Shown here in pieces: positions 37,219 to 63,396 of a stretch of 64,000 bases of DNA; the first letter of the stretch is position 1, and every line of letters begins with the position of its first letter. Both the position numbers and the translations under genes were made by a program. The notes under the pieces are model-generated. The model was not told the origin of the DNA. It did not search any database and was given only the letters and a program-made list of their open reading frames with translations. The stretch is from Acidobacteriaceae bacterium (GTDB lineage: Bacteria; Acidobacteriota; Terriglobia; Terriglobales; Acidobacteriaceae): the NCBI GenBank assembly GCA_030037705.1, contig JASHQE010000174.1:1-64000 (forward strand). The letters run 5' to 3'.

Positions 37219-37721
37219 CATGTCCAGGCGCTCGATGTCCGAATTTTTGCCTGCACTGCCGGAAGTGACACCGCCAGCGCAGTCTTGCACCAGCCTGTTC
37301 GGTTTTAACTTCAACTCAGGTCTTCCATTCGTACAAAAAGAGAAGGCTCGTCGGCGAGTCCCATCTCTCTCGTTGCGGCACGCAAATGCGTTTCCGAAAC
37401 GAAGAGCTTTTCTTTAAGCCCTTCGTGCTGGTGGCCAAGAGCTGGCGATTAAGCAGTGTGGGCCGCACAATCCACGCTTAGAACATTGTGATCGTAGCAA
37501 TCAGCCGGTGGTCGCAACATTACATATTCCTACTAGCGCCTAAACAGGCAAATTCATTGCAGCCATTGGCAAGCAACCAGAGATCCCGTACCAGGATCGC
37601 CATAGAGATCAGATTTGATCTCGGATTATTGAGCGCACACAACTAAGGCTACATATATATGGAGTTGACGCCGACTCAACGAAAGCATCTTCTACTGCAT
37701 AAAGGGTTAATTTTGTAAATT
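37219..37721. other. Divergent intergenic region between decarboxylase and histidine kinase
   Basis: No gene apparent. It contains two sequences that recur elsewhere in the window: TTACATATTCCTACTAGCG at 37520-37538 and CTACATATATATGGAGTTG at 37649-37667. These are described under findings. Confidence 0.4.
37520..37538. promoter_or_regulatory. TTACAT-type motif, copy 1
   Basis: TTACATATTCCTACTAGCG. It shares 17 of 19 positions with the copy at 47894-47912. It lies about 400 bases upstream of the 2-oxoacid decarboxylase and 180 upstream of the kinase at 37722. Candidate binding site of the FixJ-type regulator; inference only. Confidence 0.35.
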
Positions 37722-39413
37722 TTGGCGAAGTCTGTTGGCAGACTATTTGCGATCTCAGCGACAAAGGAAATGAACTCAGCACCTCGACCGCGTTCCTGTG
37801 CCCCATGCGCTGTAGCTCGCTGGATGTCGCGAGTTGGCTGTGTCGTTTTCGTTGCACTACTGTCCTGCATCCCGTCTGCGTGTCGGGACCAATCCGGCCC
37901 ATTCATCAAGTTCACTCGAGTTCCACGCTCATCCGAAGGCGATCCGATCCGATTGGATACTATCGAAGGTCGAGTGATTGGAGCTCGTCCAGGTCAACGC
38001 ATTGTATTATTCGCGTTTTCGGGCATTTGGTGGGTACAACCGTTCGTCAATCAGCCTTTCACCAGGGTCCAACCGGATTCGACGTGGAGTAATTCGACAC
38101 ATTTCGGAACAAAGTATGCCGCGCTTCTCGTGGAGGGGAATTACCAGCCTCCCGCCAACATTAACGCTCTGCCGCCAGCTGGTAACGGCGTCGTTGCGGT
38201 CGCGGTTGTCAATGGGAGCCCCGAGTTCTGGCAGACTTGGTGGTTCTTACTCCTGGCTACGCTGGCCGCGGCAGGGATGGTCGCCGCTTACTTTTTCCAA
38301 CGCATGGTGCTGTTGGGAAGCGAGGAAAAGAGGTTTCGGGAGGCGATCGAAACGATGCCGGCGATGGCGTTTAGTGCCCGATCTGACGGCCACTGGACCT
38401 TCGTCAATCGAGGTTGGGTTGAATTTACGGGACTGAATGTCGCTCAGTCGGCAGGAGTAGGTTGGCAGACCGCGGTTCATCCGGATGATCTCAGTCACCT
38501 TCTCAACAAATGGCTTCGGTCACTCGCTTCGGGGGAACCCCTCGAGCACGAGCTACGCATCCGACGCGTGGTGGATGGAGCACATCACTGGTTCCTGATG
38601 CGCTCTCAGGCTCTACGGGACATGCATGGGAAAATTCTGCGGTGGTACGGCGCGGCTACGGACATTGAAGACCGCAAACGGGCCGAACAACTTCAGGCAG
38701 CTCTGGCCCATGCAAACCGGGTCAACACGATGGGAGAATTGGTCGCTTCGATCTCGCACGAACTTGCACAGCCGCTCATGGCCTCAACCATGAACGCAAA
38801 GGCGTCTTTGCGATGGCTTCAGCACGAACCACCCGACCTGGCGAAAGCTCGCGAAGGAACAAAAAAAATCATCGAAGCGGGCACTCTTGCCTCGGAAATC
38901 ATTGATCGGCTGAGATCGTTATACAAGAAGGCTCCCCCCAAGCGAGAGTTGGTCGTGATTAATGAGGTCGTCGTCGAAATGACAGGGATGCTCAAAAGCG
39001 AAGCCAGAAGGCATGGAGTATCGATCCGCATCGATCTCAAGGACGATCTTCCCATGACGGTGGCAGATCGAGTGCAGCTCCAGCAGGTCCTCATGAACCT
39101 GATGCTGAATGGCATCGAAGTGATGAATGAGACAGGCGGCGTGCTTACGGTCAAATCGCAATCAAACGCACTCGGCGGGTTCGAGGTCACTATAAACGAC
39201 ACAGGTCCCGGCCTGCCTCCTGGTAAGGCCGACCAGTTATTTGAAGCATTCTTTACAACGAAGCCGCAGGGCAGCGGCATGGGCCTGTCAATCAGCAAAT
39301 CGATTATCGAAGCGCACGGTGGCCATATATGGGCAACGAACAACGAGGGCCGTGGAGCGACATTTCACTTCACGATGCCACCGGCGGTCGAAGACCAGAG
39401 CGCTACCAAGTAA
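37722..39413 (+). CDS. Membrane PAS histidine kinase, FixL-like kinase core
   Basis: Sensor kinase of 563 residues from a TTG at 37722; ATGs at 37770 and 37824 are possible, the last beginning a signal- or lipoprotein-like segment (SRVGCVVFVALLSCIPSAC). An extracytoplasmic domain (about 55-165) is followed by a membrane helix (WWFLLLATLAAAGMVAAYFF). A PAS/PAC domain follows (FREAIETMPAMAFSARSDG, HPDDLSHLL, WYGAATDIEDRKRAE). The kinase core has the phosphoacceptor in MGELVASISHELAQPL, the N-box in LMNLMLNGIEVM and the G-boxes DTGPGLP and GSGMGLSISKSII. This is the HPK4/FixL-like kinase type. It is convergent with the kinase at 39506. No dedicated regulator is adjacent; its partner may be the FixJ-type regulator at 45836. 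Confidence 0.88.
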   Translation: MAKSVGRLFAISATKEMNSAPRPRSCAPCAVARWMSRVGCVVFVALLSCIPSACRDQSGPFIKFTRVPRSSEGDPIRLDTIEGRVIGARPGQRIVLFAFSGIWWVQPFVNQPFTRVQPDSTWSNSTHFGTKYAALLVEGNYQPPANINALPPAGNGVVAVAVVNGSPEFWQTWWFLLLATLAAAGMVAAYFFQRMVLLGSEEKRFREAIETMPAMAFSARSDGHWTFVNRGWVEFTGLNVAQSAGVGWQTAVHPDDLSHLLNKWLRSLASGEPLEHELRIRRVVDGAHHWFLMRSQALRDMHGKILRWYGAATDIEDRKRAEQLQAALAHANRVNTMGELVASISHELAQPLMASTMNAKASLRWLQHEPPDLAKAREGTKKIIEAGTLASEIIDRLRSLYKKAPPKRELVVINEVVVEMTGMLKSEARRHGVSIRIDLKDDLPMTVADRVQLQQVLMNLMLNGIEVMNETGGVLTVKSQSNALGGFEVTINDTGPGLPPGKADQLFEAFFTTKPQGSGMGLSISKSIIEAHGGHIWATNNEGRGATFHFTMPPAVEDQSATK

Positions 39414-39505
39414 TTTATATGTGCTTAGGGCAGTCGGCGCTCGCACTCGTAAGACCGAATTGGCGGCAAGTGTCGAAGCTGCGACATGGGTCCGCCTCTG
39501 GACTT

Positions 39506-41062
39506 CTAGGCGCGATACCCTGGATCTTCGGTGGGATTTTTATTCACTGGGTCCAGCGGTAAGGCTACATTGAACCTCGCGCCACCATCTGGGCTATTCT
39601 CCGCCCAAAGCCGCCCGCCATGAGCCTCTATGATAGATCGTGAAACTGCCAATCCGATCCCCATGCCCTTGTCCTTAGTCGTGACAAAAGCATCGAAAAT
39701 TCTTTCTGCGTCGACGACCCCTGGTCCGTTATCAATGACTTGAACTATGATTTCGTCCCGGTCCTTCTTTGCTGTGAGCCTGACTACCGGGACAGCCTGG
39801 TTTCCCTCCAGTGCCTCGATCGCGTTCGAAAGCAAATTGATGAAAACCTGCTGGACCTGAGTGCGATCAACTGAGATTGAAGGGAGAGGTTCATCAATCT
39901 GCCACTCAATTGCTACTTCACGTTTCTTGGGGTCCTCTTGCACAAATCGAATCGCCTCCATCAGCATGTCTGGTATATCTACTTCCTTCTTAACGAAGGG
40001 CTCTCGTTTAAAGAGTGCTCGAATGTGCTGCATCGTCTCGTCCGCTGCACGAGCATCTCGCAGGATCCTTTCAATCGATGTATTCACTTCTTTTATGTTT
40101 GGCGAAGAAGCAGCCAACCATCGCTTTGCAGCCTGAGCACTTGCAAAGATCGACATAAGCGGCTGGTTGAGCTCGTGAGCGATTGAGGCCGAAAGCTCCG
40201 CAACAGTTGCGATTCTCGATGCTCTAGTAAGCTTGATGTGCGTTTCACGAAGATGATCTTCCGCTCGCTTTTGCTCATCGATGTCAATCGAAAGCCCATA
40301 CCACTGGATGATCTTGCCTTCAGGATCACGCAGAGGTTCGCCTCGTGCATGATGCCAACGATATTCGCCGTCTCTCCGTCGCAGGCGATGTATTACGCTG
40401 TATGACGCCCCAGTCTGTATTGCCTGAAAAAATGTCTTTGCGGTGTCCTCAACATCATCGGGATGAATAAATCTTTTCCAGCCCAGATTCAGGAAATCCT
40501 TAAGAGACAGGCCGCTATATTCACGGACGCTTTGACTAATTTGGGTGACTTCTCCAGACGGCGAGGCAGCCCAAAGCATGGAGGGAATTGTATCTATTAT
40601 GCCAAGCAACTCATGCTCACTTCTTTGCAATCGCTGGGCGCTTCTGCGCAGCTCGTCTTCGCTCCGCCTTTGGTCCTCTATGTCTATGCTCGATCCGTGC
40701 CACTTGACGATTTTTCCCTCGCTATCGCGCAGCGGCACCTTTTGGTGGAGCATCCAGCGATACTGCCCATCCGCGCGCCGTACTCGCGATGTTTCCTGAA
40801 AGGCCACTCCTTTGGCAAAGGATTCCCGCATCCTTTGCGCGAAGGATTCAACGTCTTCAGGGTGAATGCAGGATGTCCAGCCCCAACCCAACAACTTCTC
40901 CAACGGTTCACCTGAGAAGTCGAGCCAGGTCTGATTGAAGAAATCCAAGTAACCATCCGGCCGCGCTGTATGGAGCAATGCTGGTGAACAGTCGACAATC
41001 TGGCGAAGCGTCAAAGTCTCATCGTCAACCGGAGTGCGCTGATTTTCTATCATGATGGACAT
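39506..41062 (-). CDS. Soluble double-PAS histidine kinase, FixL-like
   Basis: A 518-residue kinase without membrane helices. Two PAS/PAC units: the first with CSPALLHTARPDGYLDFFNQ and HPEDVESFA, the second with IDTIPSMLWAASPSGEVTQ and HPDDVEDTA, each closed by a WHGSSIDIED- or WYGLSIDIDE-type PAC end. The kinase core has the phosphoacceptor His in ELSASIAHELNQPLM, the N-box in FINLLSNAIEALEG and the G-boxes in DNGPGVV and GMGIGLAVSRSIIEAHGG. The PAS folds lack the haem-ligand pattern I would need to call it an oxygen sensor. There is no ribosome-binding site of note before the ATG at 41062, and ATG 41053 is an alternative. It is probably transcribed on its own. Confidence 0.88.
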   Translation of the reverse strand: MSIMIENQRTPVDDETLTLRQIVDCSPALLHTARPDGYLDFFNQTWLDFSGEPLEKLLGWGWTSCIHPEDVESFAQRMRESFAKGVAFQETSRVRRADGQYRWMLHQKVPLRDSEGKIVKWHGSSIDIEDQRRSEDELRRSAQRLQRSEHELLGIIDTIPSMLWAASPSGEVTQISQSVREYSGLSLKDFLNLGWKRFIHPDDVEDTAKTFFQAIQTGASYSVIHRLRRRDGEYRWHHARGEPLRDPEGKIIQWYGLSIDIDEQKRAEDHLRETHIKLTRASRIATVAELSASIAHELNQPLMSIFASAQAAKRWLAASSPNIKEVNTSIERILRDARAADETMQHIRALFKREPFVKKEVDIPDMLMEAIRFVQEDPKKREVAIEWQIDEPLPSISVDRTQVQQVFINLLSNAIEALEGNQAVPVVRLTAKKDRDEIIVQVIDNGPGVVDAERIFDAFVTTKDKGMGIGLAVSRSIIEAHGGRLWAENSPDGGARFNVALPLDPVNKNPTEDPGYRA

Positions 41063-41268
41063 CGTACAACGCTCAGGAGGCAGACGGATTTTAATCTGGC
41101 TCTGATCACCGAGGACAAAGACCTCTCAACGTCAAACAAAGAGAGATTGCAAAGCAGCACTCAACTCGACAGCCGATGAATGGGTTCCTGTGTCTGGATG
41201 CCTTCACAAATGCGCCTGAACTGAAGTGGCCGCTTGGGTTTTCATGGTTCACCTCTTCAGCAGAGTAC

Positions 41269-44200
41269 TCATGTGCTCGACTCGATGTCCGTTTTTAACG
41301 TAAAGTGAAAGGTTGCGCCTGCAATGGGATTCGCTGAGGCCCACAAGCGACCGCCATGCGCCTCGACGATCGAACGGCTGATCGCCAATCCCATACCAGT
41401 GCCCTCAGGTTTGGTGGTGTAAAACGCTCTAAAGATCCTGCCAATGTCCTCTGCAGGTAGTCCGATTCCGGTATCGCTTACCGAGAATACAAGCTCTCCA
41501 TTTTCGGTCTGCGATCGAATCGTCAGCTCGCCTGGTTGGCTTATACCTTTCATTGCTTCGATGCCATTCAGCATCAGATTCATGAATACCTGCTGCAATT
41601 GCACCCGATCGGCCATCACGCGGGGGAGATCGCCAGAGGTTTGAGTGCTAATGGAAATCGAATGCTGACTCGCTGCCTTACGTAGCAAGACGATCATTTC
41701 TTGTATCACCTCGTTAACGTCTACTTCCGTCCGATGGGGCAGGCCCTTGTGGAACAAAGCGCGGATGCGGCTGATGATATTGTCGGTGCTCTTTAGGTTT
41801 TCGATGACCTTCGATGCAGCCTCGCGAGCCTGTTCGTGGTCGGGCTGAGCGCGCGAGAGCCACCGGCAGCACGAGAGTGCGTAATTGGCGGCTGCGGTGA
41901 TCGGTTGTCTGATTTCGTGAGCTAAGGACGCAGTGAGCTCCCCCATTGTGGTCACCCGGTTTATGTGAGCGAGTTCGGCCTGAAGCTGCCGAATCCGCTC
42001 ACGTTCTTCTTCCGAGCGTTTTCGATCTTCAATGTCGGTAAGAGTTCCATACCACTTAAGGACATTGCCGCGACTATCGCGCAACGGCACGCAGCGGGCC
42101 AGAAACCACCGATATTGGTTATTCGCATTGCGATGCCGTTCCTCATTCTCGAAGGGTGCGCCGGTTTTCAGGGATGCGTGCCACTTGCGCGCATGCTGGT
42201 CCCGATCTTCGGGATAGAGAGAGGATTCCCAGCCAGAGCTAAGGTTGATTTTCTCCTCCAGCCCTGTGTAGTCGAGCCAGGGACGATTTACAAATTCGGT
42301 GGTCCCATCGGGTCGCGCGGAAAACGCCATCGCCGGAATAGTTTCCACTACGTTCCGCAGGTGCCTTTCCTCCTCTCGAAGTTGCCGGATGCGCAGTTGA
42401 TAGATTCCTGCAAGCAGAGCCATAATCAAAAGGACAAAGAGCGAACGAAACCACCAAGTGCTCCACCACGGCGGCAGGATCTGGATGCGGAGCGAGATCC
42501 CTGGCTCGCTCCAATGTCCGTGACTTGTAGTGGCCTCCACGCGAAACATATAGGTGCCGTAAGGCAGTGCGGTGTAGGCCGCCATTCGCTGATTGCTGTC
42601 GACTTCATTCCACTTGCTTTCCAAATTTTCTAGCCTGTATCGGTAACGCTCAGTTTCAGCATTCAAATAGCTCAGCGCGGAAAACTCGATGGCAAAGGCA
42701 TTTTGCGCGTGCGAGAGCGTGACTTTGTCTGTATGACCAATTGACCTTGTTAGAAGCGAGTGCTTCCCTAACGTAACGGAGTCGCCGAACAACTTGAAAT
42801 CTGTCAAAACAAGCGGAGGCACGAAGGTATCGTCTGTGATCCGATCAGGAAAAAAAGCAACGGCTCCGCTAAAACCACCAAAAAACATCTCTCCAGTGCT
42901 GCTTTTATAGCAGGCGCCCCAGCCGGTCAGGTCGTCACCGGGCAGTCCGTCTGCAACGGTGTAATTCCTGAAGCTTTCGGTTCTTGGATCGAAGTTCGAT
43001 ATCCCTTTGTTGGTGCTCATCCACAGCGAGCCTTTTCGGTCTTCGAGCACGCAACTCACAACATTTCCACTCATCCCTTGCTGCTCGCCATAAACGGAGA
43101 AACTGCTGGTTCGACGATCAAGCTTGTCCAAACCATTTTGCGTTCCAGCCCAAACCGTTCCCGCGTGGTCGATGTAGACGGAATTTACGCGGTTATCGCT
43201 GAGACTGTGCGGGTCGTCAGGTCGATGACTGTAGATGGTAAAGCGGCTCGTCAGGGGATCAAATCGATGGAGTCCAATTTCGCTGCCGAGCCATAAGTTG
43301 CCGTCCTTATCTCGGACGATAGCATGGTAGTTGAGGCCTCCGCCGTTGCTTTCCGGTTTGAATCTGGTGAAACTCTGGGTCACTGGGTTGAAATGGCAAA
43401 GCCCCTCCCATGTTGCGCCCCAGAGCGTTCCGTCCTTGTCCAAAAGCAAGCTTTCAACGATGCTCTGGATGCATGCGTAAGCGGCGCCTGCGGGATACGG
43501 GTACTCCTTCACATTGCCAGTATTTCGCTCGTACCGTTTGATTCCCCTGTCCGTGCCGAGCCAAAGGATATCGGGCTCTTGCTCGACGATCGAAAGTACT
43601 GTGGATCCAGTGTGGGCGATGGATTTAATCCTGGAGTATTTTCCCGTAGATCGATTGATGAGAGTCACACCGTGATCTGAGCCGACCCACAAGAGGGCGT
43701 TACGATCCTCATACAAGGCACTCACCAGCGAGGCGTCAAGACTGTTGGGATTACCAGACTCGTGTGTGAATTTTTCGAAGAAAGGCCGTTTTGTTGTAAA
43801 AAAATTCGGCTCAGCCTGGTGCAATCCAACCCAGATCGTTCCTGCGCGGTCTTCGAATAAAGTTGTGACGCGATTATCGGCCAGGCTGTCACTGTCGCCA
43901 AGACGGTTGCCGTAACTGACAAACCTTCGATGTTCACGGTCAAACTCCAGCAGCCCATTGTCAGAACTGCCAAACCACATATTGCCGTTCCGGTCTTCCA
44001 ACATTGCGTAGATGCGGTTCCGCGTCATATCCCCGTGCGGGTTGGGACCAAATTGAAAACGAGTAATCTGGCCGGATGTGCGATCAAGTATCCCAGGCAC
44101 TCCATAGTCTCCGTAGAAAATCCAAAACACGCCGAAGCGGTCCTCATGGAAATAGTTGCCGAAGCCGGAATGCGGAGTTGAAATATGTCGTATTACTTTG

Positions 44201-44997
44201 CCAGTTCCCCGGTCGAATTCATCGAGCGTTTGGGAAGTAGCGACCCAGAACCTGCCTTCGCGATCTTCGCCGGTCGACGAAACGTCGCTGTCTCCGATCG
44301 TCGTAGAGTCTTGGGGATCGTGAACGAATCGGGCGAATTGTTTTGTTGCGGCGTCAAGCCGAAAGAGTCCCACGTTGGTGGAGAGCCACAGAAAGCCTGA
44401 ACTGTCTTGGCTGATGTGGCTTATGGTTGTGGTGACACCGTTTCTGTCCGGCTCGCCAAGCGAATAGTGTGTAAACGATTCTGTCACGGGGTCCAGGCGA
44501 TCTAGAAATTGGTCGGACGCAACCCAAATATTTCCCGAGCGGTCCTTGAATAAAGCGTGAATGTATACCCCGCTGAGACTGTCTGGACGCTGCGGGTCGT
44601 GCCGGAAGACCTTACACTTGTAGCCATCAAATCGGTTCAATCCGTTCTGCGTGCCAAACCAGATGAACCCGTCGTTGTCCTGCACAATGTCGGAGACTCG
44701 CGTCTGGGAGAGCCCCGCATCTGCAGGAAGTCTGTGGAACTCTATGCCCCTCCCTTCGATTATTGGAAGTGTCAGCGCGTTGCCCGAATGAGATTCACTT
44801 GCGACCAACGGACCCACGAGTAATGAACAGCACAACAAAACGGTCCCGCAATAGACAGCAAAGTCGCGGAGGTGGAGCAGTTGCAAAGTTGTCCGCTGAA
44901 TCTCGGATTTCAAAGCTCCGTCACCCCTATGCGCTCGAACGTCAATACATTCCAGCTTAGACAGCTTGATCACCAGGTGCGAAGAAAAAAAATCCAT
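41269..44997 (-). CDS. Two-component propeller sensor histidine kinase
   Basis: A 1242-residue sensor kinase. A signal or anchor segment (VYCGTVLLCCSLLVGPLVA) precedes two seven-bladed Reg_prop propellers with repeated LFEDRAGTIWVG/LDPVT-type blades (for example VQDNDGFIWFGTQNGLNRFD, LFKDRSGNIWVASDQFLDRL). A Y_Y_Y domain follows (LRIQILPPWWSTWWF border) and then a membrane helix (FVLLIMALLAGIYQLRI). The cytoplasmic part is a PAS/PAC domain and a FixL-like kinase core: His in MGELTASLAHEIRQPIT, N-box LMNLMLNGIEAM, G-box GTGMGLAISRSIVEAHGG. It lacks the receiver and AraC domains of Bacteroidetes hybrid systems. Such propellers sense carbohydrates in known cases. The two regulators upstream at 45406-46474 are candidate partners. 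Confidence 0.9.
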   Translation of the reverse strand: MDFFSSHLVIKLSKLECIDVRAHRGDGALKSEIQRTTLQLLHLRDFAVYCGTVLLCCSLLVGPLVASESHSGNALTLPIIEGRGIEFHRLPADAGLSQTRVSDIVQDNDGFIWFGTQNGLNRFDGYKCKVFRHDPQRPDSLSGVYIHALFKDRSGNIWVASDQFLDRLDPVTESFTHYSLGEPDRNGVTTTISHISQDSSGFLWLSTNVGLFRLDAATKQFARFVHDPQDSTTIGDSDVSSTGEDREGRFWVATSQTLDEFDRGTGKVIRHISTPHSGFGNYFHEDRFGVFWIFYGDYGVPGILDRTSGQITRFQFGPNPHGDMTRNRIYAMLEDRNGNMWFGSSDNGLLEFDREHRRFVSYGNRLGDSDSLADNRVTTLFEDRAGTIWVGLHQAEPNFFTTKRPFFEKFTHESGNPNSLDASLVSALYEDRNALLWVGSDHGVTLINRSTGKYSRIKSIAHTGSTVLSIVEQEPDILWLGTDRGIKRYERNTGNVKEYPYPAGAAYACIQSIVESLLLDKDGTLWGATWEGLCHFNPVTQSFTRFKPESNGGGLNYHAIVRDKDGNLWLGSEIGLHRFDPLTSRFTIYSHRPDDPHSLSDNRVNSVYIDHAGTVWAGTQNGLDKLDRRTSSFSVYGEQQGMSGNVVSCVLEDRKGSLWMSTNKGISNFDPRTESFRNYTVADGLPGDDLTGWGACYKSSTGEMFFGGFSGAVAFFPDRITDDTFVPPLVLTDFKLFGDSVTLGKHSLLTRSIGHTDKVTLSHAQNAFAIEFSALSYLNAETERYRYRLENLESKWNEVDSNQRMAAYTALPYGTYMFRVEATTSHGHWSEPGISLRIQILPPWWSTWWFRSLFVLLIMALLAGIYQLRIRQLREEERHLRNVVETIPAMAFSARPDGTTEFVNRPWLDYTGLEEKINLSSGWESSLYPEDRDQHARKWHASLKTGAPFENEERHRNANNQYRWFLARCVPLRDSRGNVLKWYGTLTDIEDRKRSEEERERIRQLQAELAHINRVTTMGELTASLAHEIRQPITAAANYALSCCRWLSRAQPDHEQAREAASKVIENLKSTDNIISRIRALFHKGLPHRTEVDVNEVIQEMIVLLRKAASQHSISISTQTSGDLPRVMADRVQLQQVFMNLMLNGIEAMKGISQPGELTIRSQTENGELVFSVSDTGIGLPAEDIGRIFRAFYTTKPEGTGMGLAISRSIVEAHGGRLWASANPIAGATFHFTLKTDIESST

Positions 44998-45405
44998 CGC
45001 ACCCGGGGACGGTAAGGTGGATTAAGGCGTTTAGCCCAGCTTGATCTACCGAGCCGTCTTCAGGTGTATCCGCAGCCTCGGACCGGGCAGCAAAGCGGGT
45101 CACACGCCGGACATACCGTATCCACTCTGAACATGTATGCAAAAGCGTTCAGAGATGTTTGCAAGGGAGAAATATGATCCCGCTCGGCAGGATTATTTTT
45201 GAGCTTAACCTCAGGACAACTTCCCAGGTCTTCTTGTGAACCCTACATATTTATGTAATTGACGCGACTGCGCGAATTGTGAGCACGCATTCCCATTCTT
45301 CGGCGTACTCTTGCTTAAAAAAATGAAAGGCCTCGCGATACTACACTTAGCGTCGATGGAGATTGTTGTCGAAGTGAATGCCGGCCGCGATAAGCGCCTC
45401 GCTGC
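44998..45405. other. Intergenic region upstream of the propeller kinase
   Basis: No gene apparent. CTACATATTTATGTAATTG at 45243-45261 is nearly palindromic (ATTACATA...TATGTAG) and resembles CTACATATATATGGAGTTG at 37649. It lies about 250 bases upstream of the kinase start. Confidence 0.35.
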
Positions 45406-45783
45406 TTATTCACCCCAGGTACAGACTGAGCCGATCAATTCCAGGAGCGCATCGCCGTCCACCGGCTTCCTGAAAAAGCCCGCAGCACCGTTTTTCAGAT
45501 AAAAGTCCTCTGACCTTTCCGATGGCTTTCCCGTAATCATGATTACGGGAACGATGCAATCGCTGCTCTTCAGGTGTTGGAGAAGGCCAAAACCGCTCAT
45601 TTGTCCCAATTCGATATCCGTAATAACGCAACTGGTTTTGGCGAGTCCTCCGGATTCGAGAAACTGTTCCGCCGATTCGTAGCTGTCGGCTTTGTACCCA
45701 AATGAAGCCAGCAGATTAATGAGGGATTCAAGAACTCGGAAATCATCATCGATGACCGCAATTGACCGTGCGTGCGCTTTCAT
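45406..45783 (-). CDS. Single-domain response regulator (receiver only)
   Basis: The ATG at 45783, with GCGGGG upstream, gives a receiver of about 125 residues and nothing else; the frame continues to 45870 into the preceding gene. Acidic pocket SIAVIDDDFRVLES, phosphoacceptor Asp in SCVITDIELGQMSG, conserved Thr in VPVIMITGKPSER, and Lys in GFFRKPVDGDALL. There is no output domain, so it either shuttles phosphate or acts by protein contact. It follows the FixJ-type gene by about 50 bases in the same direction, and the propeller kinase follows it, so the three could form one signalling unit. Confidence 0.85.
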   Translation of the reverse strand: MKAHARSIAVIDDDFRVLESLINLLASFGYKADSYESAEQFLESGGLAKTSCVITDIELGQMSGFGLLQHLKSSDCIVPVIMITGKPSERSEDFYLKNGAAGFFRKPVDGDALLELIGSVCTWGE

Positions 45784-45835
45784 AGATGACCCCGCATTCT
45801 CTATAGGCTCTAGCGAAAATTGTGATGACAGCATC

Positions 45836-46474
45836 CTAGGCATTGCTGCAAAACATTCGAGGCGCCTCAAGATTCAACTTCCCGGCAATCTTGACTAATG
45901 TTGCAAAGGAGTCAGCTTCCATCTTTCGCATAATATGCCCACGATGGATTTGAACTGTGTATTCGGTTATCCCAAGTTCGTAGGCGGCTTGCTTGTTTAG
46001 CAAACCTCTTATCAAGAGAGGGAGCACCTCCCGCTCTCGGGGCGTGAGAGATTCATAGCGAGTCAGCAGCCTGGCACGTTCGATTGCATCTTGTCGACTC
46101 GCGCGGTCTTGAAGCAATGCTCGCTCAATAGAGGCGAGGAGCGTTTCTTCATCGACCGGCTTGGTTAAGAAATCGACAGCCCCCGCTTTCAGTGCTTTTA
46201 CTGTCGAGGGAATATCACCCCGGCCCGTCAGAAAGATCACAGGAATCGAGGCGCTCACGGAAATCAGCTTCTGCACTTCCAACCCTCCCAATCCGGGCAT
46301 CTTGAGGTCGAGAATCAAACAAGCACAAGAGTCCTGTCGGGGGAAGTCGATGAAATCTTGTCCAGACGTAAAGGTTCGAACACTTTTGCGGTTAGCGCGC
46401 AGCAAAGTCGCCAACGCGTCTCTCACATTCACCTCGTCGTCCACAATATAGACAACCTCATTCATCAGTTCCAT
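45836..46474 (-). CDS. FixJ-type (LuxR/NarL family) response regulator
   Basis: A 212-residue transcription regulator. AAGGGG lies six bases before the ATG at 46474. The receiver has the acidic pocket VVYIVDDEVNVRDAL, phosphoacceptor Asp in CLILDLKMPGLGGLE, Thr in IPVIFLTGRGDI and Lys in DFLTKPVDEETLL. The LuxR-type helix-turn-helix is LTPREREVLPLLIRGLLNKQAAYELGIT and TVQIHRGHIMRKM. This is the normal partner class of FixL-like kinases, three of which are encoded within 9 kb. In alpha-proteobacteria the family controls micro-oxic respiration; here the surrounding oxidase, NDH-2 and fermentation genes make a redox role plausible, but this is inferred. Confidence 0.9.
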   Translation of the reverse strand: MELMNEVVYIVDDEVNVRDALATLLRANRKSVRTFTSGQDFIDFPRQDSCACLILDLKMPGLGGLEVQKLISVSASIPVIFLTGRGDIPSTVKALKAGAVDFLTKPVDEETLLASIERALLQDRASRQDAIERARLLTRYESLTPREREVLPLLIRGLLNKQAAYELGITEYTVQIHRGHIMRKMEADSFATLVKIAGKLNLEAPRMFCSNA

Positions 46475-46972: not shown

Positions 46973-47722
46973 TTAGATAACCGAGTTGACAATTCCGTAT
47001 CTGACCAACTTCGACCGAAGCGTACGTCGTCCCCGCATCAGACGAGATTTCGCTGCTTCCACAGAGATGTCGAGAGACTCTGCCAATCCTTCCAGCGAAC
47101 CCTCAGATCCGTAATAGAGATTGACTACGGAACGGAGGCTTGGCCGCAGTTTTTGCATTTCTCTCTTCAGCAGGAGAGCGATCTGTTGTCTCTGGTACAA
47201 ACGTTCAGGTCCTGGCGAATGGTCCGCGGGATCCCATACTTCTGGTGCCCCAGCCCCAGAAATGCCGGCATCGATTTGAGTTTCCCTGCGAACCCTTCGC
47301 TTTCGCAGTAACATCAGGGCCGAGTTCACTCCGATGCTGATGATCCATGTAGAAAACGCGCACGAGCGTCGAAACGACAGCAAATGCGTATAGGCTCGCA
47401 ATAGTGTGTCCTGCATTACATCTTCAGCATCCTCCCGATTCTGAACGATCCTGAATATCTTCATCTTCACCAGAAATGAATAACGCGCGCAGAGTTCTTC
47501 GAATGCCTGCTGATCTCCGCATTGAGCCGCGGTGACCAGATCATCGTCCGAAGCCTGAGAGTGGCGACACGAGTTGTTCCTCTCGTGCAGCGTGGTGCGT
47601 GATCTCTGTTGTAGGTCAAAAGCATCGCTACGCTGCGTGGAAGTGAGTTTGCGATTCTGCGAAAGGTTAATATCCGTTGGCATTGCAACTGCTTCTTTTA
47701 GCGCGCAGGAGATCCTCTTCAT
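46973..47722 (-). CDS. ECF-type RNA polymerase sigma factor
   Basis: Sigma-70 family member of 249 residues. AGGGAGA lies about nine bases before the ATG at 47722. An unconserved N-terminal 60 residues precede region 2 (AFEELCARYSFLVKMKIFRI, DAEDVMQDTLLRAYTHL, FSTWIISIGVNSALMLLRKR) and, after a linker, region 4 (LRPSLRSVVNLYYGSEGSLE, ESLDISVEAAKSRLMRGRRTL). This is the ECF architecture without region 3. No anti-sigma gene is adjacent, so control may be at expression level or by a distant partner. Target promoters are unknown. Confidence 0.9.
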   Translation of the reverse strand: MKRISCALKEAVAMPTDINLSQNRKLTSTQRSDAFDLQQRSRTTLHERNNSCRHSQASDDDLVTAAQCGDQQAFEELCARYSFLVKMKIFRIVQNREDAEDVMQDTLLRAYTHLLSFRRSCAFSTWIISIGVNSALMLLRKRRVRRETQIDAGISGAGAPEVWDPADHSPGPERLYQRQQIALLLKREMQKLRPSLRSVVNLYYGSEGSLEGLAESLDISVEAAKSRLMRGRRTLRSKLVRYGIVNSVI

Positions 47723-48108
47723 GTGGTCTTCTCCCTGTAGCTAGTGCGGATGTAGCCCGACAATGGATGCTGCCATTCCGATGTGAAGTGCAGATCATCT
47801 GTGGGTAACGTGGCGCTTGGTTGGGGTTGGGCTACAGCCGAAGTATCTATCCCGGCTGGTACAGATGCTACTGTCGTAGAACATGCGGGAAAAGTACATA
47901 TTCCTGCTAGCGAAACTACCGTTCCCGACCGTCTTAATCTATTAGATATGGTTGCGTTTTTCAGCCCGGGAAAGCATTACAGAAACATGTGATTGTCTGC
48001 TTATTCTTTCGGTTGCTACTCTCGCGGTATCGAACTGTCGGAGCAAAGCGGCACCTAGCGTCCAGAGTGGCACCATTCGCTTAAGCTCAGCAGGAAAGTA
48101 GTGGCGGA
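47723..48108. other. Divergent region between ECF sigma and NDH-2
   Basis: Non-coding. Contains GTACATATTCCTGCTAGCG at 47894-47912, the near-identical partner of the sequence at 37520. It is about 170 bases upstream of the sigma gene and 200 upstream of the NADH dehydrogenase. Confidence 0.4.
47894..47912. promoter_or_regulatory. TTACAT-type motif, copy 2
   Basis: GTACATATTCCTGCTAGCG; 17 of 19 bases match the copy at 37520-37538. Candidate shared regulator site in the divergent region of the sigma factor and NDH-2. Confidence 0.35.
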
Positions 48109-49380
48109 ATGACCAAACAGGATCCACTGGTCGTAATCGTGGGCGGCGGTTTTGGCGGCTTGGCCGCAGCAAGAGTGTTGCGCAGAGCGCCGGTCAGAGT
48201 CTTGTTGATTGACCGTTCCAATCATCACGTCTTCCAGCCCCTTCTCTATCAGGTTGCCACCTCAGTGTTGGCTCCAGGGCAAATTGCTTCTCCCATCCGC
48301 GGTCTTCTCGCCAGCCATGAGAACACATCCGTGATGCTGGGAAACGTGACCGGCGTGGACGCAGCTTTACGGCAGGTTATCGTCGACGCCGACGATAGGG
48401 TTGGAATCGGAATCGGTTATGACTACCTTATCCTCGCTACCGGAGCTACGCACAGTTATTTCGGACACGACGAGTTCGCGACGTTCGCACCTGGACTCAA
48501 GAGCCTTGCAGACGCCGAATCTCTGCGCAATCACATCCTCTCTGCTTTTGAGAAGGCTGAAATCGAGAGCGATGATCACCGGCGCGAGGCCTTGATGACC
48601 TTCGTGATGGTTGGCGCCGGACCAACTGGCGTGGAACTGGCCAGCGCAATTGCTGTGATGGTCAGGACGACGCTTCGAAAGAATTTCCGTCGAATTCACC
48701 CCAACTCTGCACGTGTCATCCTCATCGACATGGGACATCGCCCGCTTGGAGCATTCTCTGAAAAGCTTTCCGAGGCTGCGAGACTACGCCTGATCGAACT
48801 CGGTGTAGATGTCCGACTTGGACAGGCTGTGCAGTCGATCGATGCAGAGGGCGTTGTCGTCGGTCAGGAGCGGATCCCCAGCAAGACCGTGATCTGGACT
48901 GCGGGTGTTGCACCTTCGCCGGCCGGCAAGTGGCTTGGCAGCGCAGTAGATCGTGCCGGACGAGTGCGCGTTCAGTCCGATTTGACCATCCCACAGCACC
49001 CGGAGATCTTTGTCATTGGAGATACAGCTTCGCTTGACCAGGGCGGACGCCCTTTGCCCGGTGTCGCGCAGGTCGCGATGCAGCAGGGGGTCTATGCTGC
49101 GAAAGCAATATTTCGCCACGTAACCAAAAAGCCGGCGCTCCCGCCATTCCGTTACTTCGACAAGGGTAACTTGGCAGTTGTAGGCAAGAACTTCGCGGTG
49201 CTCCAGGCTGCTGGAATTGGGATGAGCGGATTCGCTGCATGGCTTGTCTGGGCGCTGATCCACATACAATTCTTGGCGGAAAATAGCCTGCGTTTCAGTG
49301 TCTTTCTGCAATGGGTTTGGACGTATCTCAGCGGCAAGCGCGGGGACCGACTCATCATCGAACACCACCGCGACGCTTAG
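48109..49380 (+). CDS. ndh: Type II NADH dehydrogenase (NDH-2)
   Basis: Single-subunit FAD enzyme that passes electrons from NADH to quinone at the inner face of the cytoplasmic membrane without pumping protons. The FAD-binding Rossmann motif is VVIVGGGFGGLAAARVL, the NAD-binding one is FVMVGAGPTGVELAS, and the second FAD contact is IFVIGDTASLD. The C-terminal stretch with GFAAWLVWALIHIQFL and the following aromatic residues is the usual membrane-associating helix. 423 residues is typical. GGCGGA precedes the ATG. It probably supplies the quinol used by the bc-oxidase operon at 56-63 kb. It is rightward and alone, divergent from the sigma factor. Confidence 0.92.
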   Translation: MTKQDPLVVIVGGGFGGLAAARVLRRAPVRVLLIDRSNHHVFQPLLYQVATSVLAPGQIASPIRGLLASHENTSVMLGNVTGVDAALRQVIVDADDRVGIGIGYDYLILATGATHSYFGHDEFATFAPGLKSLADAESLRNHILSAFEKAEIESDDHRREALMTFVMVGAGPTGVELASAIAVMVRTTLRKNFRRIHPNSARVILIDMGHRPLGAFSEKLSEAARLRLIELGVDVRLGQAVQSIDAEGVVVGQERIPSKTVIWTAGVAPSPAGKWLGSAVDRAGRVRVQSDLTIPQHPEIFVIGDTASLDQGGRPLPGVAQVAMQQGVYAAKAIFRHVTKKPALPPFRYFDKGNLAVVGKNFAVLQAAGIGMSGFAAWLVWALIHIQFLAENSLRFSVFLQWVWTYLSGKRGDRLIIEHHRDA

Positions 49381-49420: not shown

Positions 49421-49567
49421 ATGGCAATAAGCAAACACGTCCGTCTTCCGGCAGATGTGTCCATAGACTCGGAAATCTTTTTTGGCCCGTTTGCTGGCGG
49501 CGTGGCAATGTTGAAGACTCTTTTCGCGCTGTCGTATGGCTACGGCGATGCTCCAGGCGCTAGTTGA
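49421..49567 (+). CDS. Possible small protein downstream of NDH-2
   Basis: A 48-residue frame starting at the ATG at 49421, preceded closely by AGGGAGG, reads MAISKHVRLPADVSIDSEIF and then a mildly hydrophobic GPFAGGVAMLKTLFALSYG. It overlaps the convergent acetolactate synthase gene by eight bases. The ribosome-binding site is strong but only one base from the ATG. No family recognised; it may be a relic of a longer gene. Confidence 0.3.
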   Translation: MAISKHVRLPADVSIDSEIFFGPFAGGVAMLKTLFALSYGYGDAPGAS

Positions 49568-51227
49568 GCAGACGCTCGTGCACCTTCTCGAACAAGAGAT
49601 GGTTGTCTCGATAATCGACCCGGATGCCGAGCAGGACGGGGCCCGCTGTTTCGAATGCCTTGCGGAGCTGGGGACCGATCTGATCTGGAGAATTGATCAT
49701 CGAGCCCGTCGCGCCAAACGCTTGTGCATACTTAACCACATCAACGGGGCCAAACTCCACACCGGAAGTGCGCTTATACTTCGCCTCTTCCTGCACTGCC
49801 ACCATGTCATAAGTTCCGTCGATCCAGATCATGTGCACAAGATTGAGCTTCAGTCTTACGGCAGTTTCCAGTTCCGTCGCCGAAAAGAGAAATCCACCAT
49901 CACCCGAGATCGAGAGGGTCTTTTCATGAGGCCGTACGAGACAAGACGCGATGCCCCAGGGCAGAGCAACACCAAGTGTCTGTTGACCGTTGCTGATAAG
50001 AATCTGACGGGCCCGGAAGCTAAAGAGAAAATGCGCAAGCCACAGATGAAACGATCCCATATCGAGGCAAACGGTAACATCTTCAGAGAGCCACTTCTGT
50101 AGTTCGGCAACGATCCGTAGTGGATGAATCGGATTGTCGGTGTACCGATTTGCATCCTCAGCCCTCAATGTTCTCTTCGATGCCAGAGTGTCAAGGAATC
50201 GTTCGACGTCGCCCGTGAGAATGACTGGACTCACCAGTTCTATAAGGGCTGTTAAGCTGGCCGCAATGTCACCCAGGATCTCCACCGCGGGCGAGTAGAA
50301 GTTGTCGACGTCGGCACGCATAGAGTCGATGTGAACGATCTTCGCGGCGCGTGCATGATTCCAAATTGACGGATCATATTCAACCGGATCGTAGCCGACA
50401 GTAATAATGACATCGGCTGAGGCTAAGAGTTCGTCTCCTGGAGTGTTGTCCAACTGTCCGACGCGACCAGCGAAGCTTCTGAATAGATCAGCCGATACTG
50501 CCCCGGCAGCTTGAAAGGTTCCAACCACCGGGATACGGCTTTTCCGTATAAAGGCACGCACTGCATCAGCATTCTTCGACCGGCTAGCAAGAAGTCCGAG
50601 CAGAATGACGGGGCGCTTGGCTGCATTGATCAGCTTGCTAGCGTCTCCCAGAGACTCCTGGCTACCCGGACCAAAGGTCGGGCTTGCAGGTATCTCAAGC
50701 ACCTCGCACCTGGCCTCGCCCTCCATGATGTCTTTGGGAAGATTCACGAACGCCGCGCCAGGCCGGTCCGATTCCGCTGCGCGGAAAGCATTCGCCATGA
50801 CTTCCGCTATGGACTCCGGGGAATTCGCTTCAGCGCTGAACTTAGTCACCGGCTTCAGAACGGATACCGCCTGAAGGGTCTGATGGATCTGTTTCAGGCT
50901 TTGCGACGTCGCAACAGATCCGCCGAGTGCAACTATAGGATCACCCTCGCTATTCGCAGTTGCCAGCCCCGTTGTGAGATTGCTCACTCCCGGTCCTGAC
51001 GTGGCTATTGCAACACCGGCCCTTCCCGTCAGTCTCCCGATGCCACCGGCGATAAAGGCTGCATTCTGCTCGTGACGGCAGACGATGGTCTGGATCGATG
51101 AGTCTTTAAGAGTATCGAACACCTTGTCGATCTTTGCCCCGGGAATTCCGAACACGTATTGAACACCGTGTCTCTCGAGTGATTCCACCACCACCTGAGC
51201 GCCGATCTTGGGAACTGCTGAACTCAT
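49560..51227 (-). CDS. alsS: Acetolactate synthase, catabolic type
   Basis: ThDP enzyme joining two pyruvates to 2-acetolactate and CO2. The cofactor glutamate is E53 in VCRHEQNAAFIAGGIGR. The ThDP/Mg motif runs from ISGDGGFLFSATELE to IDGTYD. Residues and length (555) resemble the FAD-independent catabolic AlsS/BudB group rather than the biosynthetic IlvB, and no regulatory small subunit is adjacent. GGAGAGGG lies just upstream of the ATG. It is the last gene of a leftward operon after acetolactate decarboxylase (27-base gap) and an ADC-family enzyme, which defines acetoin formation as its role. This pathway limits acidification and disposes of excess pyruvate. Confidence 0.9.
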   Translation of the reverse strand: MSSAVPKIGAQVVVESLERHGVQYVFGIPGAKIDKVFDTLKDSSIQTIVCRHEQNAAFIAGGIGRLTGRAGVAIATSGPGVSNLTTGLATANSEGDPIVALGGSVATSQSLKQIHQTLQAVSVLKPVTKFSAEANSPESIAEVMANAFRAAESDRPGAAFVNLPKDIMEGEARCEVLEIPASPTFGPGSQESLGDASKLINAAKRPVILLGLLASRSKNADAVRAFIRKSRIPVVGTFQAAGAVSADLFRSFAGRVGQLDNTPGDELLASADVIITVGYDPVEYDPSIWNHARAAKIVHIDSMRADVDNFYSPAVEILGDIAASLTALIELVSPVILTGDVERFLDTLASKRTLRAEDANRYTDNPIHPLRIVAELQKWLSEDVTVCLDMGSFHLWLAHFLFSFRARQILISNGQQTLGVALPWGIASCLVRPHEKTLSISGDGGFLFSATELETAVRLKLNLVHMIWIDGTYDMVAVQEEAKYKRTSGVEFGPVDVVKYAQAFGATGSMINSPDQIGPQLRKAFETAGPVLLGIRVDYRDNHLLFEKVHERLLN

Positions 51228-51253: not shown

Positions 51254-52090
51254 TTACGATTCGTGATTGCGTTCCGCACTTATCAGATCGGCATTGGGAT
51301 CACGGGTGAGGTCCGCTTTCAAAAATTCTTCCGTCTCTGGCAAAGAGACATGCATTTCATTCATCGAGCAACCACTGATAGTCACGGAGAGAGCCTTACA
51401 GTCTAGTACATGGCCGCCTCTCTGGCGATCCTTTGAAAGGAAGTGGAAGTGGTAGCCGGGAACGCTAAATGATCCGGCAAATCCAGGGGACCAAAGTCCT
51501 ACCAGTGTTCCTTGTTGTTCTTCGAAAAGGAATTCTTCCTGTCCTGATGCCGCAGATTTGAGCCTCGTTCCTTCAGCGACTGCATGCATGACTCTGGTTT
51601 TCACCTGAGAAAAGGTTCCGTCAAATCGGAAGGCGTAGAACACATTGTTAGATTCGCGAAGCTCATCACAAACTCGGACGAGCTCTTGAAAGCTGTTCAG
51701 TTGATGGCGTTTCTCGCTGAAGTCGGCCCTGAATCGGGTAACGACGGCATAAGGAATGAGCTGATTTCCTTCAACCACGGTAACGGCACCGGTAGATGCT
51801 ACCCGGTAGCAGACCCCATCGAGCACAACCATTTCTCCATCGAGGCTAATGAAAGTGCCCAGCCCGAAGTCTCCATGCCGCAAAAGTCGAGACACTTGCA
51901 CTGCACCTTGGTAGAGGCCCTCAACGAGGGCCGCCGATGTTGAAACCTGAAAAAGAGTGTGCAGCGGCTTACCGAGACATTGCGATAGCGCCATCGAAAC
52001 TACGTGATCGCAGCTCGACTGGTCAGCCGTCATGCGCTCCATCAGGGCCTCATGGAGCGAGTCAGGGAGATTGCATGTAATCTTCTTCAT
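51254..52090 (-). CDS. budA: Alpha-acetolactate decarboxylase with N-terminal ribbon-helix-helix-like domain
   Basis: Zinc enzyme converting acetolactate to acetoin. The catalytic body starts at about residue 47 (LFQVSTSAALVEGLYQG) and includes HGDFGLGTFISLDGEMVVLDG. Zinc ligands H216, H218 and H229 (numbered from the TTG at 52096) lie in GYHFHFLSKDRQRGGHV. The first 42 residues are an extra module: MKKITCNLPDSLHEALMERM followed by a second helix ending ALSQCLG, which has the strand-helix-helix pattern of CopG/Arc ribbon-helix-helix domains. The start is ATG 52090, with TTG 52096 possible. It is the middle gene of the acetoin operon. The fusion is unusual: the module could bind DNA, or simply drive dimerisation. 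Confidence 0.88.
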   Translation of the reverse strand: MKKITCNLPDSLHEALMERMTADQSSCDHVVSMALSQCLGKPLHTLFQVSTSAALVEGLYQGAVQVSRLLRHGDFGLGTFISLDGEMVVLDGVCYRVASTGAVTVVEGNQLIPYAVVTRFRADFSEKRHQLNSFQELVRVCDELRESNNVFYAFRFDGTFSQVKTRVMHAVAEGTRLKSAASGQEEFLFEEQQGTLVGLWSPGFAGSFSVPGYHFHFLSKDRQRGGHVLDCKALSVTISGCSMNEMHVSLPETEEFLKADLTRDPNADLISAERNHES

Positions 52091-52202: not shown

Positions 52203-53003
52203 CTACTTCGTCAGATTCTTGAGCGTCTTGAGATCATCGACAATGTATGCCATCGACGCGCGTACGCCTACGCCGCAATGCAATGGAGCGAGATCCGACA
52301 ATTCTTCGCCCGGGACAACCGGCAATGTCAGTGAGCCTTCACCGATCCAGGCCTGCTCAATCTTCAGGTCATGAGGCGTGTTCTCTACAAGTTCGTGCAC
52401 TGCGGGGTTGTTGTGCTTGCCGGCTGCGAGCCTCGGGAAGTGCAGAAGGTTTACAACCGGCCTTTGCTTAACCTTCGAGAGGTCGGTCGCGGGCTCCTTT
52501 AAGATCACCAGCCCATGTGCTAGGCGCTGTCCGGCGGATGTGAGTGTACCCGCAAACTTTGCGCCAGGCGCCAAAGCCGGACCCGCTTTTCCCGTGGCTG
52601 CATAGTACCGTGTCTGGAAAACCTGCCCCAACCGTTTGGGATAGCCCTGGCTCCAACCGCGGGCTATCGCTGCATCGTTGTCCACAAAGATGTATGGGCA
52701 ATAGGAAACAGGCCTGCCCTCATAGAGGGCATCCAACAGCACAAAGAACTCACGGTATTGATAGCGAGCCGGATCCAGGTACTCTTCGTTTTGTCCACTG
52801 AACTGCCAGTCGTAGAACATCGCGATGCCATGACCGTTCGCGGTGGAATCAGGATCGAGCCCAGCAGGTAACACCGCGGCTACAGCCGCGGGATCTGACC
52901 AGAATTCGATGCTAAGAAAATCAGACGAGTAGTACCACGGAGGAGGCGGGTTGAGAGTAGACTTGCCTTTCGGCGTGAGCGGGTAATTAAAGCCTTTCAA
53001 CAT
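52203..53003 (-). CDS. Acetoacetate decarboxylase family protein
   Basis: A 266-residue member of the acetoacetate decarboxylase superfamily, which uses a Schiff-base lysine to decarboxylate or otherwise process beta-keto acids. The lysine is K123 in SQGYPKRLGQ, with the nearby family features WYYSSDFLSIEF and YREFFVLLDALYEG. AGGAG lies seven bases before the ATG at 53003. It is the first gene of the unit that continues with acetolactate decarboxylase (about 110-base gap) and synthase. Classical acetoacetate decarboxylase makes acetone, but no CoA-transferase is nearby. In this context its substrate may be a related branched keto acid; the true reaction is unknown. Confidence 0.85.
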   Translation of the reverse strand: MLKGFNYPLTPKGKSTLNPPPPWYYSSDFLSIEFWSDPAAVAAVLPAGLDPDSTANGHGIAMFYDWQFSGQNEEYLDPARYQYREFFVLLDALYEGRPVSYCPYIFVDNDAAIARGWSQGYPKRLGQVFQTRYYAATGKAGPALAPGAKFAGTLTSAGQRLAHGLVILKEPATDLSKVKQRPVVNLLHFPRLAAGKHNNPAVHELVENTPHDLKIEQAWIGEGSLTLPVVPGEELSDLAPLHCGVGVRASMAYIVDDLKTLKNLTK

Positions 53004-53162
53004 CGATGTTCTCCTCTTCGGCGCGAATTCACTGATTATGTCGTCAATTCGCTAAACGCCGATATCGATACCTGGTATGAGATTCCGGGAGGTCTTGGCG
53101 TATATCAGCCGATGCCTTATCTCAATACAGCGGTGATACTATCGCCAAAATCGGTCCAAGAG

Positions 53163-53180
53163 AATTACATGTTTCTGGTA
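53163..53180. promoter_or_regulatory. TTACAT-type motif, copy 3
   Basis: AATTACATGTTTCTGGTA, identical over 18 bases to the sequence at 63379-63396. It lies about 160 bases upstream of the acetoin operon start at 53003. Candidate shared regulatory site. Confidence 0.45.
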
Positions 53181-62208: not shown

Positions 62209-63249
62209 TCACTTCAGGGTCTCGAGATAGGCAGTCACTTGATCGAGCTGCTCATCGCTCAGTTGCATCGCCGGCATAAGTGCGCCGCGCTTAAACGAAT
62301 CCGGCGACTTGATCCACTCGCGGAGGTTTTCGGGAGTGTTGTCCATGGCGCCCGAAGCCAGAGTTGCCCGGCTCATCAGGTGGGTCAGATCCGGTCCAAA
62401 GCGGCCGGTTGCCGATGTGCCCGATACCGTGTGGCAGTTCATGCAAGCCTGCGTCTCGAAGACTTTTCTCCCCGCAGCGACCGCGGAGTCTTGCCGTCCT
62501 GGTTGTTGCTGACTCTTGATCCAGGCATCGAACTGCTCCGGAGTATCGACGTACACGCGGAGCAGCATCAGGGCGTGCTGCGTGCCGCAGAACTGAGCGC
62601 ATTGGCCAAGATAGAGCCCGGGCGTATTGGGGTCGAGCCACATGGTGTTGATGTGGTTGGCAATCAGGTCGGTCTTCCCGGCGAGTTGTGGAACCCAAAA
62701 ACTGTGATTTACGTCAGCCGAGGTCAATGTGAGGAACGTAGGCCTCGACGCCGCATTGCCGCTCACAGGAATGTGGAGTTCATTCGCTGTGACGACACCA
62801 TATTTTGGGTATCGGAACTCCCACCAGAACTGGTGGCCGATCGCCGTAACATCCAGCGCAGCAGTCGGCTTTGGAGCGTCCTGGATCGCAAAGATGATGC
62901 GCGCAGTTGTAAGAAAAAGCACGACCACAATGAGTACGGGAATGACCGTCCACGCCAATTCGATCTGCGTGCTTCCGTAGATCTGGGCCGGTTCTGCCAA
63001 TGAGTCCGACTTGCGTGCCCGGAATCTGAACAACGCAACCGCAAGTAGTCCGCCAACGACGAGGAAGATACCTCCTGTAATCGAAACAACAAATACCGAT
63101 AAATCAAAGATCTGGTGCGCAGGCGTAGAGGCTGGCGCGAGGGTGCTGGGAACCCTCTGCGGCCCCTGCGCCAACATCGAGCTGGTCAGCCATAGCCACG
63201 CAGCTACACTGCCAAAGCGAGCTAAACGGCCAATACGCTTCGCCTGCAT
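62209..63249 (-). CDS. ctaC: Cytochrome c oxidase subunit II with fused cytochrome c (caa3 type)
   Basis: Electron-entry subunit. The ATG at 63249, with AGGGAAG upstream, starts a signal peptide (ARFGSVAAWLWLTSSMLAQG). Two helices follow (DLSVFVVSITGGIFLVVGG, LAWTVIPVLIVVVLFLTTAR) and then the cupredoxin domain with the CuA ligands in GQCAQFCGTQHALMLL. The C-terminal 90 residues form a monohaem cytochrome c (CMNCHTVSGTSATGRFGP, axial Met in RGALMPAMQLSDEQ). This defines a caa3-type oxidase. It is the first gene of the seven-gene respiratory operon; a TTACAT-type motif lies about 130 bases upstream. Confidence 0.94.
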   Translation of the reverse strand: MQAKRIGRLARFGSVAAWLWLTSSMLAQGPQRVPSTLAPASTPAHQIFDLSVFVVSITGGIFLVVGGLLAVALFRFRARKSDSLAEPAQIYGSTQIELAWTVIPVLIVVVLFLTTARIIFAIQDAPKPTAALDVTAIGHQFWWEFRYPKYGVVTANELHIPVSGNAASRPTFLTLTSADVNHSFWVPQLAGKTDLIANHINTMWLDPNTPGLYLGQCAQFCGTQHALMLLRVYVDTPEQFDAWIKSQQQPGRQDSAVAAGRKVFETQACMNCHTVSGTSATGRFGPDLTHLMSRATLASGAMDNTPENLREWIKSPDSFKRGALMPAMQLSDEQLDQVTAYLETLK

Positions 63250-63378
63250 CTTGTGATCTTCCCTTCCAATCGGGTTAGGATCGGATATCAATTGGACGAG
63301 CGCCGGAAGGAGCAACTTCTCTTCGAACGATGAAAGACTTCCGACAGCGTGATACTAGCAATGCAAAGTAGCCGTCGA

Positions 63379-63396
63379 AATTACATGTTTCTGGTA
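63379..63396. promoter_or_regulatory. TTACAT-type motif, copy 4
   Basis: AATTACATGTTTCTGGTA, identical over 18 bases to the sequence upstream of the acetoin operon at 53163-53180. It lies upstream of the oxidase operon, between it and the gene at 63452. Candidate shared regulatory site. Confidence 0.45.

Follow-up and report, generated by a model that had tools for sequence, protein, structure and literature searches.

Does a DNA-binding fold in front of a metabolic enzyme make this enzyme a regulator? Ribbon-helix-helix (RHH) domains are by default regarded as DNA-binding and their fusions to enzymes as autoregulators, with PutA as the standard case. The question is raised by a gene in the window, that is, in the whole stretch of 64,000 nt analysed here, which is part of contig JASHQE010000174.1 of an Acidobacteriaceae bacterium. 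The 278-residue product of this gene, which begins MKKITCNLPDSLHEALMERMTADQSSCDHVVSMALSQCLG, carries an RHH-like module before an acetolactate decarboxylase (ALDC) domain. In a preliminary description it was proposed that such an enzyme could bind DNA and autoregulate its operon in response to acetolactate or, alternatively, that the module only helps oligomerisation. The features of the locus are collected in Table 1.

Table 1. Positions of the features discussed in the text (window coordinates, unless another contig is named).
Feature	Position	Strand	Basis
RHH-ALDC coding sequence	51254..52090	(-)	278 aa + stop, ATG at 52090; homologues align full length
RHH module, residues 1-42	51965..52090	(-)	Profile, Pfam RHH_1 in relatives, AlphaFold and structural matches
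Catalytic ALDC domain, residues 45-274	51269..51958	(-)	Pfam/NCBIfam, 4bt2/6j3d alignment, invariant columns
AlsS, catabolic acetolactate synthase, next gene downstream in operon	49560..51227	(-)	NF006378/TIGR02418 above cut-off
Acetoacetate-decarboxylase (ADC)-family protein, first operon gene	52203..53003	(-)	Pfam ADC E 1.5e-43; same place in G005, G298
Conserved promoter box CAGAAACATGTAAT, 14 bases, upstream of operon	53164..53177	(-)	Identical in three genomes, flanks diverged
-10-like TAGTAT, fixed spacing from box	53136..53141	(-)	Column consensus of 26 sites
Box before pyruvate/indolepyruvate-decarboxylase-like TPP enzyme (35431-37122)	37519..37531	(-)	
Box before NADH dehydrogenase-like gene (48109-49380)	47981..47993	(+)	
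Box before cytochrome c oxidase cluster (coxB-like 62209-63315)	63380..63392	(-)	
Further composite-promoter sites	Contig C236, 68693, 68905, 75384		
FixJ-type response regulator (receiver + LuxR-type HTH), candidate box activator	45836..46474	(-)	Pfam; orthologues near boxes

The claim that the catalytic domain is complete was borne out. Pfam AAL_decarboxy (PF03306) matches residues 46-262 with an E value of 2.3e-73 (246.6 bits at a cut-off of 25), and the TIGR01252 score of 220.2 lies above the curated cut-off of 180.65. H214, H216, H227, E86 and R166 are invariant in the family alignment and E273 is nearly invariant, and these residues could also be matched to 4bt2. By comparison with the Bacillus brevis ALDC, the three histidines are the zinc ligands, and E86, R166 and E273 belong to the active site. 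The model of the whole protein aligns with solved ALDC structures with a VIA-align Z of about 32. As judged by alignment to the known enzyme, the protein is a catalytically complete ALDC with an intact active site. The histidine triad was previously given as H216, H218 and H229; the triad itself is correct, but when counted from the ATG its numbers are two lower, and the earlier numbering fits a longer ORF of 280 aa with a TTG start. Residues ~113-273 of the ALDC model also resemble human PTD012 (Z 14.9) and the PPC/DUF296-type structures 3htn and 3hwu, which are labelled 'putative DNA-binding' (Z ~7.6-7.9).

The N-terminal module is less conspicuous. A Pfam scan of the first 50 residues of the window protein alone matched no family, and thus the RHH fold is detected only via the family profile. 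When a profile of 29 homologous N-termini was compared with 177,635 PDB sequences, the five top matches were all RHH proteins, namely AvtR (E 0.0037), CopG (0.0049; matched twice), a CopG-family protein (0.028) and EndoAI (0.034). Seven of the 29 N-termini match Pfam RHH_1 individually (best 1.2e-4), and RHH_5, FitA-like RHH and HicB-like are each matched by single members. The AlphaFold models, which are single chains, contain a coil at residues 1-9 and helices at 10-23 and 27-39, both for the module alone (pLDDT 73) and for the whole protein (pLDDT 82), and the resulting layout is a ribbon (2-8) followed by helix A (10-23) and helix B (27-39). The structural neighbours of the module are nearly all RHH proteins (CopG, the RHH domain of PutA, Arc, AmrZ, NikR and antitoxins). 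The VIA-align Z of up to 6.0 over ~42 residues is modest, the domain being tiny, and the Foldseek E values of the 50-residue model (1.5 and worse) are weak, which is not surprising for a domain of this length. Since the sequence profile and the predicted fold agree, and since the structural matches are near-exclusively RHH, we consider the assignment of residues 1-42 to the RHH fold secure at the level of sequence and model. This confirms the module that was postulated in front of the catalytic domain.

The preliminary description had suggested a search for other decarboxylases with the same extension, and many were found, across several phyla. A scan of ~85,000 species genomes resulted in 80 ALDC loci, and the N-terminal extension is common to about 37 of them. 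In a maximum-likelihood tree of the catalytic domains, the 39 ALDCs with the module (RHH-ALDCs) are all found in one branch (support 98/96), which spans Acidobacteriota, Proteobacteria, Planctomycetota and Cyanobacteria. The module is kept in 35 of the 35 members of the main clade (support 100/99), which comprises Acidobacteriota, Alpha- and Betaproteobacteria, Planctomycetota, Cyanobacteria and one MAG labelled Actinobacteria. In the sister branch it is kept in part and was lost or eroded in L079, L062, L080, L051, L068 and L089. In a sample of 396 genomes from across the phylum, an ALDC match of any kind was obtained for seven, and an RHH-ALDC was present only in the window genome and in one other. 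Because the RHH-ALDCs form one branch of the tree and are so sparse among the genomes of the phylum, the sequences show a single ancient origin of the fusion with retention across phyla, and its spread is, by the same data, partly due to horizontal transfer. Our literature search, with most subscription journals outside its reach, found ALDC together with ribbon-helix-helix mentioned nowhere. Two RHH-ALDC paralogues per genome were seen in Paraburkholderia and Bradyrhizobium (L016/L017, L019/L020, L014/L022). At the conserved start, the window gene has ATG and that of genome G298 has GTG, while the RHH-ALDC gene of genome G005 (L002, contig C5) has no ATG, GTG or TTG at this position; instead a CTG follows GGAG, which suggests a CTG start in G005.

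RHH repressors read the bases with three outward-facing ribbon residues. According to the structural alignment, these positions are occupied by K3, T5 and N7 in the window protein, which correspond to residues 5, 7 and 9 of PutA and to residues 4, 6 and 8 of CopG. K3/T5/N7 resemble R4/T6/T8 of CopG, and DNA binding by the window protein itself may thus occur. Together with a fold whose best matches are CopG, Arc and the RHH domain of PutA, this would be in line with PutA-like moonlighting, in which the RHH dimer represses its own operon at a promoter operator and binds DNA with an altered affinity when acetolactate occupies the active site. The relatives argue against it. In most of them (17 of 29), at least one of the ribbon positions 3, 5 and 7 is Asp or Glu, which is the case in none of the 44 control RHH domains, taken from the same bacterial class (0/24 strong and 0/20 weak RHH_1 matches); the 29 sequences are not independent, and the acids are found in at least seven separate lineages. 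T5 of the window protein is replaced by D5 and E5 in the two closest orthologues (75% identical), while the promoter box of the operon, which is described below, stays identical. Further, the module has a mean net charge of -1.1 in the relatives, whereas the two control sets average +1.5 and +2.3. One of the 29 relatives has a basic residue where PutA has Lys9 and the window protein N7, and in Thioalkalivibrio little is left of the ribbon while both helices are retained. A search upstream of the RHH-ALDC genes across the family revealed no recurrent palindrome or shared operator. As far as sequences can tell, the DNA-reading surface is mostly not preserved in the family, and a general autoregulatory role is poorly supported.

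For the control of transcription, the DNA upstream of the operon offers a candidate site. Only in the window genome, G005 and G298 is the ADC-family gene the first one of the operon (its score with the model of the enduracididine enzyme MppR is good, 170 bits, but below the cut-off of 380), while alsS directly follows the RHH-ALDC gene in most proteobacterial and acidobacterial members and is divergent in Reyranella. The DNA 5' of the ADC-family gene has diverged among the three genomes except for the 14-base block CAGAAACATGTAAT, which in G298 belongs to a near-perfect inverted repeat, as an operator for an RHH dimer could be. However, the block is not specific for this operon. Its 13-base core AGAAACATGTAAT occurs with at most one mismatch in 10 copies in the window genome (G000), in 5 copies in G005 and in 15 copies in G298, versus one occurrence of the reversed pattern, used as a control, in each of them; in four relatives without RHH-ALDC the counts are near background. 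Twenty-six sites share a second element at a fixed spacing, approximately GCTAnnAT, which is like a -10 hexamer, and the composite form TAnCAGAAACATGTAATTTC-N18-TTGCTAnnATCACGCTGT-like is found in this island, in G298 and in G005. Because of this -10-like element at a fixed spacing, the block is, by its sequence context, the activator/-35 region of a promoter family. Scans with sigma-70 and terminator consensus sequences gave nothing useful.

Six of the ten box copies of the window genome fall within 28 kb of one contig. The genes located 3' of boxes on the contig of the window encode a pyruvate-decarboxylase-like enzyme, an NADH dehydrogenase, the ADC-ALDC-AlsS operon, a cytochrome oxidase cluster, an efflux operon, an aldehyde dehydrogenase, a Lut-like lactate oxidation operon and an FAD-linked oxidase. 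Thus, the box marks a putative regulon of pyruvate, lactate and respiration genes. The inverted repeat of G298 was rejected as an RHH operator, since its half-site stands alone, with the -10 element at the fixed spacing, before many other genes.

The island also encodes a FixJ-type response regulator, which is the candidate activator of the box. In genome G662, an 81% identical orthologue of this regulator is located ~2 kb from an exact box, while the gene for the RHH-ALDC of G662 itself (50% identical) is ~2.2 Mb distant and has no box in the 1.5 kb around it. This arrangement suggests that the box tracks the neighbourhood of the regulator and not the RHH-ALDC. In G298, copies with 71-72% identity to the regulator are found inside a box-rich island. 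The weak point is G005, which has boxes, yet its best match to the regulator reaches 46% identity, with a stop codon interrupting it. Transcription of the operon is probably set by the FixJ-type response regulator, whose binding to the box we infer from proximity only. Three genes for PAS-domain histidine kinases (37722-39413, 39506-41062 and 41269-44997) are clustered with the regulator gene (37722-46474 as a whole), and their products are probably the sensors of the box regulon. An ECF-type sigma factor (46973-47722) is less likely than the response regulator to be the box factor; its nearest copies in G298 and G005 share ~40% identity with it, and those in box-free genomes are just as close.

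Of the proposed autoregulation, the fold has remained, while the regulatory part was weakened by the ribbon acids, by the lack of a recurrent operator upstream of the family's genes and by a box that follows a wider regulon. Repression of the operon by its own enzyme therefore appears unlikely to us. The explanation which we hold to be probable is a cytosolic, complete ALDC with the RHH module as a dimerisation or assembly element, in an operon controlled by the composite promoter of the FixJ-type regulator and not by the enzyme. Thus, the oligomerisation alternative of the preliminary description appears to be the better one. The module would form an intertwined dimer and clamp two ALDC chains, or join ALDC dimers, which would stabilise the enzyme. 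At its hydrophobic core positions L12, L16 and L35, conservation within the family is 90% or higher, and in most members the distance from its start to the FQVST motif is exactly 46 residues. This near-invariant spacing to the first ALDC strand points to a tight mechanical coupling, which would be mediated by a very short linker of near-constant length. The DNA-reading surface would mostly have been lost, or never used. Transcription of the ADC-ALDC-AlsS genes would be set by the activator box and the -10 element, and the island-encoded regulator would probably control genes of pyruvate overflow, lactate oxidation and respiration together. It counts against this explanation that ALDCs without the module are already dimers, so that extra dimerisation is not obviously needed.

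Alternatively, the module could serve as a tag for interaction with other proteins, either by pairing with a separate RHH regulator in a mixed dimer or by docking ALDC to AlsS for channelling of the unstable acetolactate. RHH folds are obligate dimers, and heterodimers would thus be conceivable; in addition, the partner gene is usually alsS, either adjacent or divergent. However, no separate RHH gene was seen beside the operon, and the only RHH_1 protein found in the window genome is encoded on another contig, and we rate such a tag as improbable, like repression by the enzyme. The least probable explanation is that the extension is left from an old fusion and has no present role, since its erosion in several sister-branch members and the reduced ribbon in others are outweighed by the conserved core and by its retention throughout the main clade over long divergence.

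Ordinary ALDCs (AlsD/BudA, PF03306; 5xne, 4bt2, 6inb) have in common with the RHH-ALDC the whole catalytic domain, at 30-33% identity and with all known active-site residues, but begin with a signal peptide or short leader where the RHH-ALDC has its module. The CopG/Arc/MetJ repressors (PF01402 and relatives) are similar to the module in length, core pattern and predicted strand-helix-helix layout; unlike in these repressors, the ribbon positions are often acidic, the module is net acidic, and it is fused to an enzyme. The RHH-ALDC is thus a clean case of a DNA-binding fold that was probably reused for assembly, in a well-studied industrial enzyme, and it warns against annotating such fusion proteins as regulators. 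Further, the promoter box offers a testable overflow-and-respiration regulon in acidobacteria. The closest parallel is PutA, the trifunctional proline utilisation A protein of enteric bacteria, likewise a metabolic enzyme with an RHH domain at its N-terminus (2rbf; Z 5.6 over 42 residues to the module). The fused RHH domain of PutA is described as mediating dimerisation of the enzyme (PMC5293562), and the role of PutA Lys9 in DNA recognition is the topic of a paper cited there. In contrast to PutA, the enzyme is a different one, the Lys9 position is non-basic in 28 of 29 RHH-ALDCs, and the upstream palindrome search gave no conserved operator for the orthologues. It is tempting to speculate that the promoter at 53.16 kb, or some other site, is recognised by the RHH-ALDC dimer of this lineage and that the repression of acetoin synthesis varies with acetolactate occupancy, but such a second, independent enzyme-repressor of the PutA type is quite doubtful. 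Rather, the architecture represents a further metabolic enzyme fused to an RHH domain and is probably no new regulator.
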